Source: an uncultured Clostridia bacterium
GTDB taxonomy: Bacteria > Bacillota > Clostridia > Christensenellales > Pumilibacteraceae
Assembly (NCBI GenBank): GCA_947066105.1
Contig: CAMSYM010000006.1
Location: 1 to 64,000, forward strand
Length of the DNA: 64,000 bases
Direction of reading: 5' to 3'
Shown: piece after piece, positions 1,595 to 11,830 of the stretch
Position numbering within the stretch: the first letter of the stretch is position 1
Layout: the number at the start of each line of letters is the position of its first letter
Made by a program: the position numbers and the translations under genes
The notes under the pieces: generated by a model
Told to the model about the DNA's origin: nothing
Databases searched by the model: none
Seen by the model: the letters and a program-made list of their open reading frames with translations, nothing else

Positions 1595-2323
1595 CTATCC
1601 GTTTCGCCTGTAATAGTCGTTGAGCTTTTGCATAAACTCTTTTTTCCGCGGCTGGCTGATAACGAGATCGACCTTTTCGTCGCCGCGCCCCGTAAACACG
1701 GTTAGCGTGTAGCCCTTTACGCCGAAAACGTATCTCAGATTGACCAAACAATAATTATTGCACCGCACGAAATCGAGCGGTTCGAGCAAAGTCTGCATTT
1801 TGGACAGACTGCCCGACGCGTCGTACTCGCCGTCCGCGGTATAGTACTTTAATCTATGCTTTAAAACCTCCACGTACATGACGTCGCGCGCGAGCACGTA
1901 TTTGGTCGACCCGCCCGAGCTCACGGCTATCCTTATCTCGTCGGACTGCTTGACGAGCTTTTTGACGACACGCTCGAACTTCAACGAAAAATCATAGTAC
2001 GATACGGGCTTGACTATAAAGTCGGACGCGCCGACCTCGTAACCCTTTATCGCGAACTGCGCCATGTTGGTGATAAAGATCAGCGGCACGGCGTCGTCCT
2101 TTTCGCGGATCTTGTGCGCGAGATCCATGCCGTTCATATTGGGCATTTGTATATCCAAAAAAATAACGTCGTAATCGAGATTGTACTTCGTCAAAAAGTT
2201 TATCGGATTATCGAACCAAGTAAACCGATATTGCAAGCCGTTCTCTTCGGAATACCTTTCGAGATACGCCTTGACCGTTTCCATCGCCTCGACGTTATCC
2301 TCCACCAAAACCACTTTAAGCAT
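1595..2323 (-). CDS. LytTR-family response regulator
   Basis: Response regulator of 242 residues. The N-terminal receiver domain (1-120) has the acidic pair near residues 8-9 (VLVEDN), the phospho-acceptor Asp57 (IFLDIQMPNMNG) and Lys105 (IVKPVS). The C-terminal half, about 135-238, has the LytTR pattern (YVEVLKHRLKYYT, LEPLDFVRCNNYCLVNLRYV), which binds DNA with beta strands rather than an HTH. AGGAGC lies 11 nt before the ATG. It is the first gene of the pair with the GHKL kinase and sits directly downstream of the glycosidase operon on the same strand. Control of that operon is a reasonable inference but is not shown by the sequence. Confidence 0.93.
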   Translation of the reverse strand: MLKVVLVEDNVEAMETVKAYLERYSEENGLQYRFTWFDNPINFLTKYNLDYDVIFLDIQMPNMNGMDLAHKIREKDDAVPLIFITNMAQFAIKGYEVGASDFIVKPVSYYDFSLKFERVVKKLVKQSDEIRIAVSSGGSTKYVLARDVMYVEVLKHRLKYYTADGEYDASGSLSKMQTLLEPLDFVRCNNYCLVNLRYVFGVKGYTLTVFTGRGDEKVDLVISQPRKKEFMQKLNDYYRRNG

Positions 2324-2447
2324 TTAACGAAAAAAGCTCCTCCGTTTCGTTTACGTATATAGCGCCGTTCATATTATGCACACAAGTGCACACCGTCATT
2401 TCACCACCACGAACCCTATCGCACAACGCGCAATATCACATTTAACA

Positions 2448-2479
2448 AGTATAGCATATTACCCCCCCCCCCGTGTCAA
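2448..2479 (-). promoter_or_regulatory. Sigma-A promoter with poly-G spacer
   Basis: Read on the minus strand: TTGACA at 2479-2474, then C, then 11 consecutive G (2472-2462), then TAATATGC and TATACT at 2453-2448. The -35 to -10 spacing is 20 bp. Loss of two or three G would give the optimal 17-18 bp. It is the only promoter seen upstream of the response regulator and leaves a leader of roughly 115 nt. Confidence 0.75.
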
Positions 2480-2639: not shown

Positions 2640-5600
2640 TCAGTCGGGTTTGCCGTTGTCGGTCGCGTCGGCTTCGGCGGACTCGGACGCCACATCGCTC
2701 GTCGGGTCGTTAACGTCGGGCGCGGGCGGATCGTTACAGTTCCCGCCGTTTATGTCGCCGACGCTCTGCGCGGCGGGCGTCTTTTTACGCGGATCTATAA
2801 AGAAGAACACCGCGCAACACGCTATGCCGCCGATAAGCAGTATGTCTATTATCGCCCACAACGCGATGAACAATCCCGATTTGGATTCGGCGTTCACCTT
2901 GACCGAACCGCCTTCGGCGTTGGTGACGATATAGGTGTAGATTATGTTCTTGACCGCTTTGCGCGCGGCGTAAGCGACGTCGGGCTTATTCAGATCGAGA
3001 TCGGCGGGTTTTTCGGTCGTGCCGCCCAGCCACAGATCGTTGCCTGCGCGCACGCCTTCGGTAAAGTCGTCCATGTACCCCCTACCCTCGAACCAGTCGG
3101 TTATAACGCTGCCGTTGAAGCCCCATTCCGTGCGCAACACGTCGGTTAGCAACGCATGATTGTATCCCGCAAGCGTCGCGCCGACGCGGTTGAACGCGCT
3201 CATCATCGCGTTGCCATTGCCGAGCTTGACCGCGATCTCGAACGCGCGTAGGTAGCTTTCGCGCATTGTCTGCTCGGTCAACCACGTATTGACGTTTTTG
3301 GGATTGACGCCCGCTTCGCTCACGGCGAAGTGTTTGAGATAGCAATACAGGTTTTTGTTTTTCGCGCCGATTATCGTTTCGGCGGCAAGCTTGCCGCTGA
3401 GTACGGGATCTTCGCTGTAATACTCGTAGTTACGCGCGTTGTACACCGAGCGGTGCAAGTTCACGCCGGGTCCGTACCAGCCGTTGACGCCCATGGCTTT
3501 GGCGATGTCGCCTTGTACCTCGCCCACTTTTTTTGCGAGCGCCTTGTCGAAACTGCACCCGATGAGCGATTCGCTCGGCCAAAGCGTGTACGAGCTCGCC
3601 TTGCCCGCCTCGGTGACGTTATTGTTGAACCCTGCGGGACCGTCCTTATCCGTACAACGCGGCTTGCCTATGCTGTACACCTCGACGGTGCGGAATCCGC
3701 CGTTGCCTATCAGGTTTTTGATCTCGTCGCGCGTCATTTGATCGAGAAAAATATTCCAGATCTCGTCGTTGTCGTAATCGAGAAGCTCGTTAACGAGATC
3801 CTTGTTGAATTCGAGTTCGACAGTCGTATCGTCGCCGCTCAACTGCGCGGCGGTAGCGCGCTTACTGCTTTCGCCGTCCTTTGCTTGAACGAGATAAAGC
3901 CCAACGTCCTCGCCGTACAAATAATTCTTGACGTCGGCATTGTTATATCCGTCGTAATCGTAACCGACCGCGGCGTTGACAACACTGTCCTTACTCGTGC
4001 CGGCGGAAGCCTTGGGGTAGTTGGCAAACTTATTCGCGCGCGACAGATAGTCTATCGGACTCGCGTACGCCGTACTGCCGTCGATTGGACAATTCGCATA
4101 CGCTTTGTCGGCGGTGAAAAGATTGCCGACGGGCTTGCGGGTCACGGGATCGTTCTCGAACCTGACGCCGCTCGAAAGCGTAGCCGTCTTTGACTCGAAC
4201 GCATCGTGAGAGTTGTACATAACGCTTATTACGTACTCGCCGTTTTCCAGCTCGTAACCCTTGAATCCGTTGCTGTTTTTGTCGTACGCGTCGTACGAAG
4301 CGAGATCGTAGCCCGTAAAGCTCAAAACGACTTCGGCGCTGTTTGGCTTGCCTTCGCCCTTTTGACTGTCGGGATACAGCAACGGCGTTTTGGCAAAATC
4401 CAAAAGCACGCGCTCCGCTTTTTCTATGCCGCCCGCCTTATAAGGCGCGTGACCGTAAAGCTGAACTACTTCCTTGCCCGGCTCGTCGCCGGTATTGGCG
4501 ACTTTTACTTTTATCTCGTAGGTTTTGTTGGGATCGAACCCGCCCGTAAAGCCGTTCCAATCGACGACGCTCCACTCGAACGAAGTGTAGGAAAGCCCGT
4601 GACCGAACGGATACTGCACGACCGCATCGTAGCCCGTTTTGTCGCCGCGCGTTATTTCATCGAAATACCCGTCGGCGTCCGCCGTTTCGTACCATTTATA
4701 GCCGAAATATATCCCTTCCTGATAGACCAGATCGTTGCCCGATTTGGTCGCATTGAGATACGTCGGATCGTATTCGCGGTACGAATACGGAAGTATATCG
4801 CTCATCTTGCCCGACGGATTTATGTCGCCGCGCAAAATTTTGGGTATCGCCGCCGCGCCCGACTGCCCGGGTATGCCGACGAACAGGCACGCCTTTATAT
4901 TGGCGTACTCTTCCAAAAATCCGAGCTCCATATTGTTGCAAACGTTCAACAAAACGATGACGTCGAACTCGTTGTCGCGCAGTTTGTCCAGCATGGCTTT
5001 TTCTTCCGTCGTGAGCGCGAGATACGCGCCGTCTTTATACGAGCCCGTATTTTTGAGCTCGCCGCCGGCGGACATATCCACGTTTTCCGCGCCCCAACGA
5101 CTGAGCGTGACCACAGCCACTTCGGAGAACGCTTTGGCTTTGCTCATAAGCTCGGCTGTATAAAAGCTTTCGCCGGGATTGACCATGCTCGCCGCGACGT
5201 ACGCGTTAGTCGAACCGCCCGAACGGTAGTCCGCGTCGACGTCGCTGAAACTCTCGTACGCCGCGATAAGCTCGGCGTTATACTCTATCTCCGCTTCCTT
5301 GAACGCGTCGGTAAGGTCGACCTTGATCCGCGGATTGCCCTTGGCGTCGGTATCGAGAATGGTAGTTCCGCCCGATCCGCCGCCCGTGAGCAAAAATCCG
5401 CCGTCGGTAGAACCGTATCCGAACAGATTGACTTTTTTCAGGTCTTTCTTGGGCAAGTAGTTTTCGTTTTTAAGCAATACCATGCTTTCGCCCGCGACCT
5501 CGCGAACGCTCTCGTCGGCGACGGTAAGCGCATCCGCCACTTCGCCCTGCGTCACGTCGACCGAATCTCCCGCCAAAAACCTGTGTATGATAAGCGAGTA

Positions 5601-5702
5601 ATAATCGAGAAAATAATTGACCAACGCGAGTACAACTATAAGCACGACCGCAACACAAGTAAGTATTATTTGCTTCGTGCCGAACTTTATCTTTAACTTC
5701 AT
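2640..5702 (-). CDS. Membrane-anchored GH3 beta-glucosidase-like enzyme, domains permuted
   Basis: Glycoside hydrolase family 3, 1020 residues, expected to release glucose from beta-glucan oligosaccharides at the cell surface. The domain order is reversed from the usual one. An N-terminal TM segment (about 12-32) is followed by the GH3 C-terminal alpha/beta-sandwich domain (about 65-310; SMVLLKNENYLP, GGGSGGT), an Fn3-like domain (about 385-500), then the GH3 TIM-barrel domain (about 640-940). The barrel carries KHF, NAMMSAFN and the nucleophile Asp869 in SVITDWFEG. A second TM segment lies near 955-975, with a short acidic tail. Such permuted GH3 enzymes are known from Ruminococcus albus and Butyrivibrio. 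GGAG lies 6 nt before the ATG. It is the last gene of the GH16-scaffold-GH3 operon (30 bp gap). Confidence 0.9.
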   Translation of the reverse strand: MKLKIKFGTKQIILTCVAVVLIVVLALVNYFLDYYSLIIHRFLAGDSVDVTQGEVADALTVADESVREVAGESMVLLKNENYLPKKDLKKVNLFGYGSTDGGFLLTGGGSGGTTILDTDAKGNPRIKVDLTDAFKEAEIEYNAELIAAYESFSDVDADYRSGGSTNAYVAASMVNPGESFYTAELMSKAKAFSEVAVVTLSRWGAENVDMSAGGELKNTGSYKDGAYLALTTEEKAMLDKLRDNEFDVIVLLNVCNNMELGFLEEYANIKACLFVGIPGQSGAAAIPKILRGDINPSGKMSDILPYSYREYDPTYLNATKSGNDLVYQEGIYFGYKWYETADADGYFDEITRGDKTGYDAVVQYPFGHGLSYTSFEWSVVDWNGFTGGFDPNKTYEIKVKVANTGDEPGKEVVQLYGHAPYKAGGIEKAERVLLDFAKTPLLYPDSQKGEGKPNSAEVVLSFTGYDLASYDAYDKNSNGFKGYELENGEYVISVMYNSHDAFESKTATLSSGVRFENDPVTRKPVGNLFTADKAYANCPIDGSTAYASPIDYLSRANKFANYPKASAGTSKDSVVNAAVGYDYDGYNNADVKNYLYGEDVGLYLVQAKDGESSKRATAAQLSGDDTTVELEFNKDLVNELLDYDNDEIWNIFLDQMTRDEIKNLIGNGGFRTVEVYSIGKPRCTDKDGPAGFNNNVTEAGKASSYTLWPSESLIGCSFDKALAKKVGEVQGDIAKAMGVNGWYGPGVNLHRSVYNARNYEYYSEDPVLSGKLAAETIIGAKNKNLYCYLKHFAVSEAGVNPKNVNTWLTEQTMRESYLRAFEIAVKLGNGNAMMSAFNRVGATLAGYNHALLTDVLRTEWGFNGSVITDWFEGRGYMDDFTEGVRAGNDLWLGGTTEKPADLDLNKPDVAYAARKAVKNIIYTYIVTNAEGGSVKVNAESKSGLFIALWAIIDILLIGGIACCAVFFFIDPRKKTPAAQSVGDINGGNCNDPPAPDVNDPTSDVASESAEADATDNGKPD

Positions 5703-10282: not shown

Positions 10283-11722
10283 TTATTTCAGCTTTTTAAA
10301 TACCCGTACGTAATCCACCTGCATAGTCGCTTGCGTAAAATCGTCCGCCGCAAGAAAAGCGTTAGTTCCGGCGGGATCGTATGTGCCGCCGACGGCGAGA
10401 TTCAAAATTATGTAAAACGGCTTGTCGAACGGCGCGCTCGCGGAACTCGACGCATCGCTGTACCATTGATCGTTGTTCAGCCTGAAAACCTCTTTGCCGT
10501 CAATGATCCAAGCCAAATACTCGGCAGTCCAATCGACTGCGTAGGTGTGCCATTGATCGGTACTCGACGACAGTGTAGTCGATTTCGTCAAATATTTGTT
10601 TTGCGGCCACGCTCCGCCGAAATGCAATGTGGTGTCCGCAACGTTGCCGAGCCTGCCCTTGGCTTCCATTATATCTATTTCGCCGTTTGCCGCCCAACCG
10701 CCGTACTCGTTGTTGGTCCCGTTGTCGCCCGTGGGTTGCGGCAACATCCAAAACGCCGGCCACATACCGTTGCCCGTCGGCGTTTTCATGCGCGCTTCCA
10801 TATAGCCGAACGTCCAGTTGGCTTTATCGCGCGTGACGATACGAGCGGACGTATAATCGGCGTCGCCCGCCCTTTCCTTTTTTGCGGTTATTTTAAGCGT
10901 GCCGTCGGAAACGCTCACGTTTCCGCCGTCCGTATAATATTGAAGCTCGCTGTTGCCCCAAGCATCGGGACCGACCGCGCCGTTATAGCTGTCGCGTCTG
11001 CCGACTTGATATCCCCACTTGGTCATATCGAGAGAATCGCCGTCGAACTCGTCGTGCCAAACGAGCGAATATCCACTCGGCGCGGCGATCTCCGGATCGC
11101 TCGACGACGGATCGCGCGACGGAGTTACCGTTACCGTGCATTTGGCGACCGCCGTACCGGACGTAGCGAATATGTTTGTAGAGCCGATGCCCCTGCCCGT
11201 CACCAAGCCGTCGGAAACGGTAGCAACGGAATGATTGGCGGTATTCCACACTATCTGCGACCCGTCAGACGCAGATGCGTACAAAGCAAAAACAGCCCCC
11301 ACCTCCACTGTCGCGGAAGTATGGCTTATGGTTATTTTAACGCTCGGTCGTTCGGGTATGCTCGGCTCGTCGACGTTGCCGTCACCCTTGACCGTTACTA
11401 TACATATGGCTATCGCCGCTCCGGAGGAAGCGATTATGCTCGCCTGCCCGGGCGCTTTGCCCGTCACTTCGCCGTCGGATACGACGGCAACCGTTTCGTT
11501 ACTGCTCGACCACTCTATTTCCGATCCGTCGGAAGCCGCGGCAAACAATAAGCATACCCCCCCCCATGCGGTTACTTCGCATGAAGTTTGGCTTATCTCG
11601 ACCGTCACGTCCGACGACTCATTATCGTTTGAAACCGATCCGCACGCACAAAGAAGTACGGAAAACAGCAAAACGGTCGCTATTCCGAGCGATACGCTCT
11701 TAAATGCGATCCTATTTCTCAT
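10283..11722 (-). CDS. GH16 endo-beta-1,3(4)-glucanase lipoprotein with two Ig-like domains
   Basis: Secreted laminarinase-type enzyme of 479 residues. The signal peptide ends in lipobox LLCAC. Two BIG2-like domains cover about residues 35-200, and the GH16 catalytic domain covers about 215-479 (SLVWHDEFDG start). Its active-site motif EIDIME is at 348-353, where the two Glu are nucleophile and acid/base. I start at 11722 because the longer reading frame to 11803 would begin inside the -10 box; GGAG lies 11 nt upstream of 11722. The first BIG2 domain is encoded across a run of 9 G (11557-11565), a possible slippage site. It is the first gene of the operon with the scaffold and GH3 genes. Confidence 0.93.
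   Translation of the reverse strand: MRNRIAFKSVSLGIATVLLFSVLLCACGSVSNDNESSDVTVEISQTSCEVTAWGGVCLLFAAASDGSEIEWSSSNETVAVVSDGEVTGKAPGQASIIASSGAAIAICIVTVKGDGNVDEPSIPERPSVKITISHTSATVEVGAVFALYASASDGSQIVWNTANHSVATVSDGLVTGRGIGSTNIFATSGTAVAKCTVTVTPSRDPSSSDPEIAAPSGYSLVWHDEFDGDSLDMTKWGYQVGRRDSYNGAVGPDAWGNSELQYYTDGGNVSVSDGTLKITAKKERAGDADYTSARIVTRDKANWTFGYMEARMKTPTGNGMWPAFWMLPQPTGDNGTNNEYGGWAANGEIDIMEAKGRLGNVADTTLHFGGAWPQNKYLTKSTTLSSSTDQWHTYAVDWTAEYLAWIIDGKEVFRLNNDQWYSDASSSASAPFDKPFYIILNLAVGGTYDPAGTNAFLAADDFTQATMQVDYVRVFKKLK
11557..11565 (-). repeat. Homopolymer G9 inside the GH16 gene
   Basis: Nine consecutive G on the coding strand encode part of the WGGV stretch of the first Ig-like domain. In this assembly the frame is open. 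A change of one base would truncate the protein soon after the lipid anchor. Confidence 0.9.
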
Positions 11723-11801
11723 TATCCCGTTTACTCCGATCGTTGCCTGCAAGACACATAATAAATACGAAACTCTCCCGATAATTTCATTATTTACTGT
11801 C

Positions 11802-11830
11802 ATTATAATACTCGATCATTGATTTGTCAA
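11802..11830 (-). promoter_or_regulatory. Promoter of the beta-glucan operon
   Basis: TTGACA (11830-11825), a 17-bp spacer and TATAAT (11807-11802) on the minus strand. The predicted start near 11795 leaves about 70 nt of leader before the GH16 ATG. Confidence 0.85.

Follow-up and report, generated by a model that had tools for sequence, protein, structure and literature searches.

A poly-G tract in the promoter spacer of a LytTR two-component operon, a candidate contingency switch within a genome-wide repertoire of G tracts in uncultured Clostridia

Could a run of eleven guanines lodged between the -35 and -10 hexamers of a promoter act as a random switch above a signalling system? The question is raised by the first 64,000 nucleotides of contig CAMSYM010000006.1 (assembly GCA_947066105.1), from an uncultured Clostridia bacterium of the Pumilibacteraceae; this whole stretch is the window referred to below. 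Here, a minus-strand promoter carrying eleven G in its spacer (G11; other tract lengths are written likewise) precedes an operon that encodes a LytTR response regulator and a GHKL-type sensor kinase. We put at roughly two in three the probability that this promoter is a contingency switch with the G11 tract as its slippery element. A first-pass annotation of this DNA had seen a single case, and the larger result is the pattern across the genome: the tracts as a whole are best read as a multi-locus phase-variation repertoire that reaches regulators.

On the minus strand the promoter reads 5'-CTTGACAC GGGGGGGGGGG TAATATGC TATACTTG-3' (coordinates in Table 1). A single C separates TTGACA from the G11 tract and 8 nt (TAATATGC) separate the tract from TATACT, giving a spacer of exactly 20 bp, and this bears out the arrangement of hexamers, tract, strand and spacing described in the first-pass annotation. 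Its further premise, that the promoter is real, is upheld by sequence conservation, because the promoter (32 bases) and the 5' untranslated region (5'UTR, 124 bases) are identical at 156 of 156 positions in the sister species G006, as against 92% identity at the third codon positions of the regulator gene (88% for the kinase gene). At the third-codon-position rate, the chance of such complete identity is 1.5e-6. The sister is the only other genome found with the locus, over which it has the same sequence as CANDGE010000026.1 (uncultured Clostridia bacterium). Moreover, the motif TTGACA-N(14-21)-TATAMT occurs 145 times in the source genome, compared with a single occurrence of the reversed control. 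The regulator begins at 2323, approximately 120 nt downstream of the promoter, and its receiver (PF00072) and LytTR (PF04397) domains both score above cut-off, as does PF14501 in the adjoining kinase. Receiver and LytTR domains beside a GHKL-type kinase make up a LytTR/GHKL two-component system, in agreement with the regulator and kinase that had been assigned here, and GH3 and GH16 genes account for the glycan-use genes said to lie nearby.

How unusual is a 20-bp spacer in this genome? The comparison covers 100 listed matches out of the 145, 96 of them without a tract and four with a G tract. Among these listed matches, the tract-less promoters have spacers of 17 bp (81 cases), 18 bp (13), 16 bp (1) and 20 bp (1), so that 94 of 96 fall at 17-18 bp, and the G-tract promoters have spacers of 16, 19, 19 and 20 bp. 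Spacers off the norm are found in four of four promoters with a tract versus two of 96 without (Fisher p 3.8e-6); where a tract is present, the spacer departs from what is usual in the genome. The locus combines two of the marks of a promoter-spacer contingency locus (porA/vlp type), a homopolymer between the -35 and -10 of a real promoter and a spacing off the genome norm. The earlier calculation that G8 or G9 would yield 17-18 bp is arithmetically right, and these are the very spacings that prevail in the listed tract-less promoters.

Based on these data, we propose that replication slippage would alter the number of G and with it the -35/-10 distance, which would set the level of the regulator-kinase operon heritably and reversibly. 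At G11, with 20 bp, the basal output would be low, softened by an extended -10; at G8-G9 the spacing would come close to that of the tract-less promoters. Gain or loss of a G would then be expected to turn the regulator-kinase pair up or down at random.

The G11 tract has many counterparts. The source genome contains 58 runs of at least 8 G on either strand (G8, n=7; G9, n=27; G10, n=21; G11, n=3). Of at least 9 G there are 51, where window-trained Markov chains (order 1-3) predict 0-1 G/C runs of that length in 2.05 Mb. A plain base-frequency expectation was set aside in favour of Markov models, since it predicts many more runs of 5-7 G than the window has. Nine tracts, eight of them G and one C, lie in promoter spacers, about 25 lie in genes or at gene ends by a hand tally, and eight lie elsewhere. 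The genome thereby has the outline of a candidate multi-locus phase-variable genome (phasome), at least ten long repeats in excess of composition and placed to affect genes. Through them, switching would reach surface lipoproteins, glycoside hydrolases and, above all, LytTR two-component systems.

The promoter design extends well beyond this genome. The pattern TTGAC-N(0-10)-G8-N(0-9)-TATNNT is present in 41 of the 74 family genomes, its reversed control in none of them. Among 391 genomes drawn from the class, the same design occurs in ten (reversed control in one), namely the source genome, three of the 18 others in its order and six of the 372 that lie outside it, with one match each. Spacer length is held within limits: among the matches listed, which give 131 typed cases from part of the family, the 96 cases with a good -10 have a spacer standard deviation of 2.2, whereas 2000 shuffles that permuted left part, tract and right part averaged 4.2 and never fell below 3.3. 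Of these 96 listed cases, 64 have spacers of 16-19 bp. In one relative, G049, nine tract promoters were fetched, eight of which (L266, L268-L274) are near-identical and carry G8, G9 or G10. Behind seven of these eight, the start of a single lipoprotein family can be read (in one case for 10 residues only); the remaining promoter ran off its contig. This set is a candidate multi-gene surface-antigen switch. In a second relative, G016, five fetched tract promoters precede starts that are, by eye, signal-peptide or lipoprotein-like. The promoters of both relatives resemble the switches that govern surface antigens in the vlp genes of Mycoplasma.

LytTR regulator genes stand out among the genes with tracts. 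The source genome has 19 (20 matches, L107 and L108 being halves of one gene broken at G10), and in 12 of them a tract falls within the interval from 300 bases upstream to 60 bases downstream, where 0.6 would be expected. The p value is about 7e-13 if tracts fall independently, with limits of 300 and 60 bases that were set after the tracts had been seen and an enrichment that duplication of loci could inflate. This enrichment is directly observed, alongside the promoter anatomy and conservation, the genome-wide excess, the off-norm spacing and the frame differences from the sister at other loci described below. Three kinds of site are used: the promoter spacer in three cases, the inside of the regulator gene in two, and the position before the next start codon in seven. 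Switching could act on the promoter spacer, on the regulator frame or at the ribosome-binding site position of the next gene. The seven junction tracts (L037, L041, L049, L060, L061, L063 and L088) span G9-G11. The regulator stop codon follows the tract immediately in L041 and L063 and within 8 nt in L037 and L061; in L049 and L088 the regulator frame continues beyond the kinase start at the present tract length. We infer that the junction G run acts as a Shine-Dalgarno sequence whose length alters both the end of the regulator and the translation of the kinase, and these tracts are possible Shine-Dalgarno switches of the kinase to regulator ratio.

These sites invite a bolder proposal, that of a regulatory phasome in which one two-component family is a main target of random switching in the lineage. 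The tracts at the 12 systems would then be switches of transcription (spacer), of the kinase-to-regulator ratio (a G tract as Shine-Dalgarno with the stop codon of the preceding gene close by) or of reading frame. We advance this tentatively and rate it somewhat short of an even chance. If true, a single clone could come to contain thousands of different combinations of signalling circuits, each circuit wired or unwired, on top of varied surface coats.

Several observations weigh against a switch, and they are gathered here and in the following three paragraphs with the explanations that they favour. Sixteen of the 58 tracts mark the ends of a dispersed repeat, where there is no gene to be switched, and part of the G-run excess may therefore be mutational. 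Counts of G runs also vary sharply among relatives, from 0 to 48 in 40 genomes. Such facts would be expected if the tracts were a by-product of mutation, the lineage tolerating or generating runs of 9-10 G that arise wherever shorter G runs had been and play no part in switching. We regard this as improbable: it does not account for the non-random placement of tracts in promoter spacers, a pattern without reversed controls across the family, nor for a constrained spacer length, nor for the share of LytTR genes with a tract, inflated by duplication as that share could be. No run of at least 7 G/C is present in about 3.7 kb at eight LytTR relatives (E up to 1e-50) from five other species of the genus. 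Since tracts are absent there and 7 of the 19 LytTR genes of the source genome itself have no close tract, the LytTR tracts have been gained in the lineage of the source and its sister.

Comparison with the sister gives a divided picture. Testing 56 distinct tract contexts of the source genome against G006 loci, mostly those with runs of at least 7 so that lost tracts are under-counted, gave nine pairs; three promoters that were read in addition (L045, L033 and L072) raise these to 12. G006 promoters at contig ends in junk or adapter (L057, L082 and L044) were left out of the counts, and L065 had no G006 match over the tract. Tract length is equal in 7 of the 12 pairs (L046, L047, L061, L063, L079, L080 and L045; at L061, G006 has two extra bases after the tract) and differs in five (L064, L084, L088, L033 and L072, the last interrupted by a T in G006). 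The LytTR gene L084 is out of frame at G10 in the source genome and open at G9 in the sister; the lipoprotein-like gene L064 likewise reads out of frame at G10, and G9 is present in its match, which is counted as a pair at 82-83% identity although it may be a paralogue. At the window tract no length change is seen, with G11 and 20 bp in both genomes that have the locus, a comparison that is weak with two genomes only. A search of viral contigs for length variants returned no match to the locus. Loss of mismatch repair was rejected as a cause of the tracts: a MutS_I match lies in an open 872-aa frame in the source genome and is found in 40 of 41 genomes searched, a result that covers MutS.

Four of the five readable orthologous promoter pairs keep their total spacing, two of them via offsetting changes (a lost T and a gained G at L033, a lost A and the interrupting T at L072). 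At the fifth, L059, a 19-bp spacer with a tract in the source genome corresponds to an ordinary 17-bp spacer without one in the sister, which would have lost the tract or never had it. Because G11 is kept in both genomes and spacing in four of five pairs, these data suggest either a switch that is slow or under selection, or a promoter designed around a long spacer. This long-spacer promoter is the main rival to a switch, the mutational by-product coming next. On the long-spacer view the 20-bp spacing is selected, strong activity requires that the LytTR regulator or some other activator be bound upstream, and the G tract is filler; the agr P3 promoter of Staphylococcus aureus reportedly has such a long spacer and depends on an activator. 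Consistent with this, the two copies of a direct repeat, AAACGNCG, seen by eye at 2516 and 2494 on the minus strand, lie just upstream of the -35 at a distance of 22 bp, which presumably suits LytTR sites, and the repeat is a possible site for a LytTR regulator. The extended -10 may also work at 20 bp. We nevertheless judge a regulator-dependent promoter unlikely, since it leaves unexplained why G runs in particular fill spacers in more than half of the family, why spacer tracts also precede genes for lipoproteins, ABC proteins and hydrolases, and why tracts lie in frames and before start codons; by eye, the other two LytTR promoters with a tract, L072 and L082, lack this repeat. Neither this explanation nor a mutational by-product accounts for the placement of tracts in spacers across the family or for the three kinds of regulator site.

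Assembled tract lengths are themselves not fully reliable. At several tracts, G006 contigs break off in Illumina adapter or in G-rich junk (the start of C89, L233, and the ends of C48, C77 and C80), which is an artefact of assembly at poly-G, and because of these breaks the G006 tract lengths there are not trusted. PMC9187656 likewise reports that G-tract lengths in databases can be wrong. That the length or presence of the tracts is altogether a product of sequencing or assembly is very improbable: the window tract lies inside its contig in both assemblies, where the flanks match and the length is the same, and the tracts of the source genome are found at promoters and genes that make coherent settings.

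Returning to the contingency switch, slippage is plausible because G tracts occur genome-wide and sister-species frames differ at other loci. Slippage within a strain, its effect on transcription or translation and any benefit are predictions. The proposal of a phase-variable switch in the first-pass annotation gains from the same evidence and is held back by the G11 shared by both genomes. Its expectation of weak activity at G11 fits a spacing off the genome norm, and the extended -10 tells against a promoter that is nearly off. As for another promoter nearer the gene, which it had named as a counter-indication, a simple scan limited to 16-18 bp spacers found none on the minus strand between the tract and the regulator gene.

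Table 1. Features of the window, with coordinates, and tract loci of the source genome.
Feature	Position or locus	Strand	Basis or remark
-35 hexamer TTGACA	2479-2474	minus	sequence
G11 tract in spacer	2472-2462	minus	sequence; 11 G also in sister species
Alternative -10-like hexamer TATGCT, 15 bp spacing	2458-2453	minus	sequence; putative role
TGC (extended -10) directly before TATACT	2456-2454	minus	sequence
-10 hexamer TATACT	2453-2448	minus	sequence; same in sister species
Operon 5'UTR	2324-2447	minus	124/124 bases same in sister species
LytTR response regulator, 242 aa	1595-2323	minus	Response_reg and LytTR domains
GHKL-type sensor kinase, 440 aa	188-1510	minus	HATPase_c_5
Terminator-like hairpin, 14 pairs	2611-2579	minus	separates GH3 gene from LytTR/kinase operon
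GH3 glycoside hydrolase gene, upstream context	2640-5702	minus	
Second long window tract, G9 within GH16 gene (10283-11803)	11557-11565	minus	in frame at G9
Spacer tracts above LytTR regulators	window, L072, L082		
Spacer tracts above ABC ATPases	L033, L044		
Spacer tract above GH3 gene	L057		
Spacer tract above lipoprotein-like gene	L059		by eye
Spacer tracts above genes without Pfam match	L045, L065		
Tract inside LytTR gene	L081		in frame
Tract inside LytTR gene	L084		out of frame
Tract 5-11 nt before kinase start codon	L037, L041, L049, L061, L063, L088		
Tract 5-11 nt before regulator start codon	L060		
Genic tracts, GH3	L058, L080		
Genic tract, GH16	window 11557		
Genic tract, AraC	L039		
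Genic tracts, BspA-type repeat proteins	L036, L078		

Within the conserved 5'UTR, a reading frame of 27 codons (window 2316-2399, minus strand) overlaps the regulator start codon out of frame, and translational coupling to the regulator is possible. A structured leader was considered and rejected, the 5'UTR folding no better than its shuffles (z -0.52). The GH16 gene with the second long tract is lipoprotein-like, and its sister match likewise has G9. Elsewhere in the genome, a C9 tract (L086) lies in a long frame matching phosphatidylserine decarboxylase, a membrane-lipid gene that may also be length-dependent. The dispersed repeat ends in GATGAT followed by Gs, four in the window (approximately 50-113) and eight to ten at 16 places (e.g. 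L032, L035 and L066).

With 51 G runs of at least 9 in 2 Mb, and with the promoter form found in more than half of the genomes of its family (41 of 74), this lineage of Clostridia shows an apparent phase-variation repertoire. Should the tracts slip, signalling systems placed under random switching would make clonal populations diverse in their regulatory states, a possibility that could be tested in existing metagenome reads; the named members nearest the locus are metagenome-assembled genomes. In the listed titles and abstract openings of open-licence papers, nothing was found that deals with promoter switching by poly-G in this group or with LytTR families that vary in phase, nor any paper that joins phase variation with Christensenellales. 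As a mechanism, such switching has been described in other organisms. What looks new is its extent in uncultured Clostridia, together with its concentration on a single regulator family.

Several known systems resemble ours. The poly-A tract of Mycoplasma hyorhinis vlp genes is said to lie in the promoter spacer, and the switching of CmrRST in Clostridioides difficile reportedly proceeds by DNA inversion and not through a homopolymer. The closest likeness is to porA, opc and fetA of Neisseria meningitidis, promoters with a homopolymer between -35 and -10 that is thought there to alter sigma-factor binding; those genes encode surface antigens of a cultured pathogen in which variation has been shown, whereas here the switch is predicted, above a regulator-kinase operon and in an uncultured lineage (PMC2791445). 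The vlp genes form a surface lipoprotein family, each gene with its promoter homopolymer, and G049 looks alike, except that the vlp tracts are poly-A instead of poly-G and that regulators are also apparent targets here (PMC10502178). In Bordetella pertussis, the two-component kinase BvgS is switched by a G/C homopolymer within the reading frame (C6/C7) of one kinase gene, bvgS (PMC1891110), in contrast to the tracts found here at 12 of the 19 members of a regulator family, in three kinds of site. CmrRST is a phase-variable signal transduction system that also belongs to the Clostridia (PMC6837544). G-tract slippage in a gut commensal has been demonstrated by deep sequencing in Bifidobacterium breve, where the tracts described are intragenic in pilus clusters and not in promoters or regulators (PMC9187656). 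Finally, Campylobacter genomes have many G/C tracts, unevenly distributed among related species (PMC539331), and differ from the present lineage, in which tracts also occupy promoter spacers and sites at LytTR regulators.
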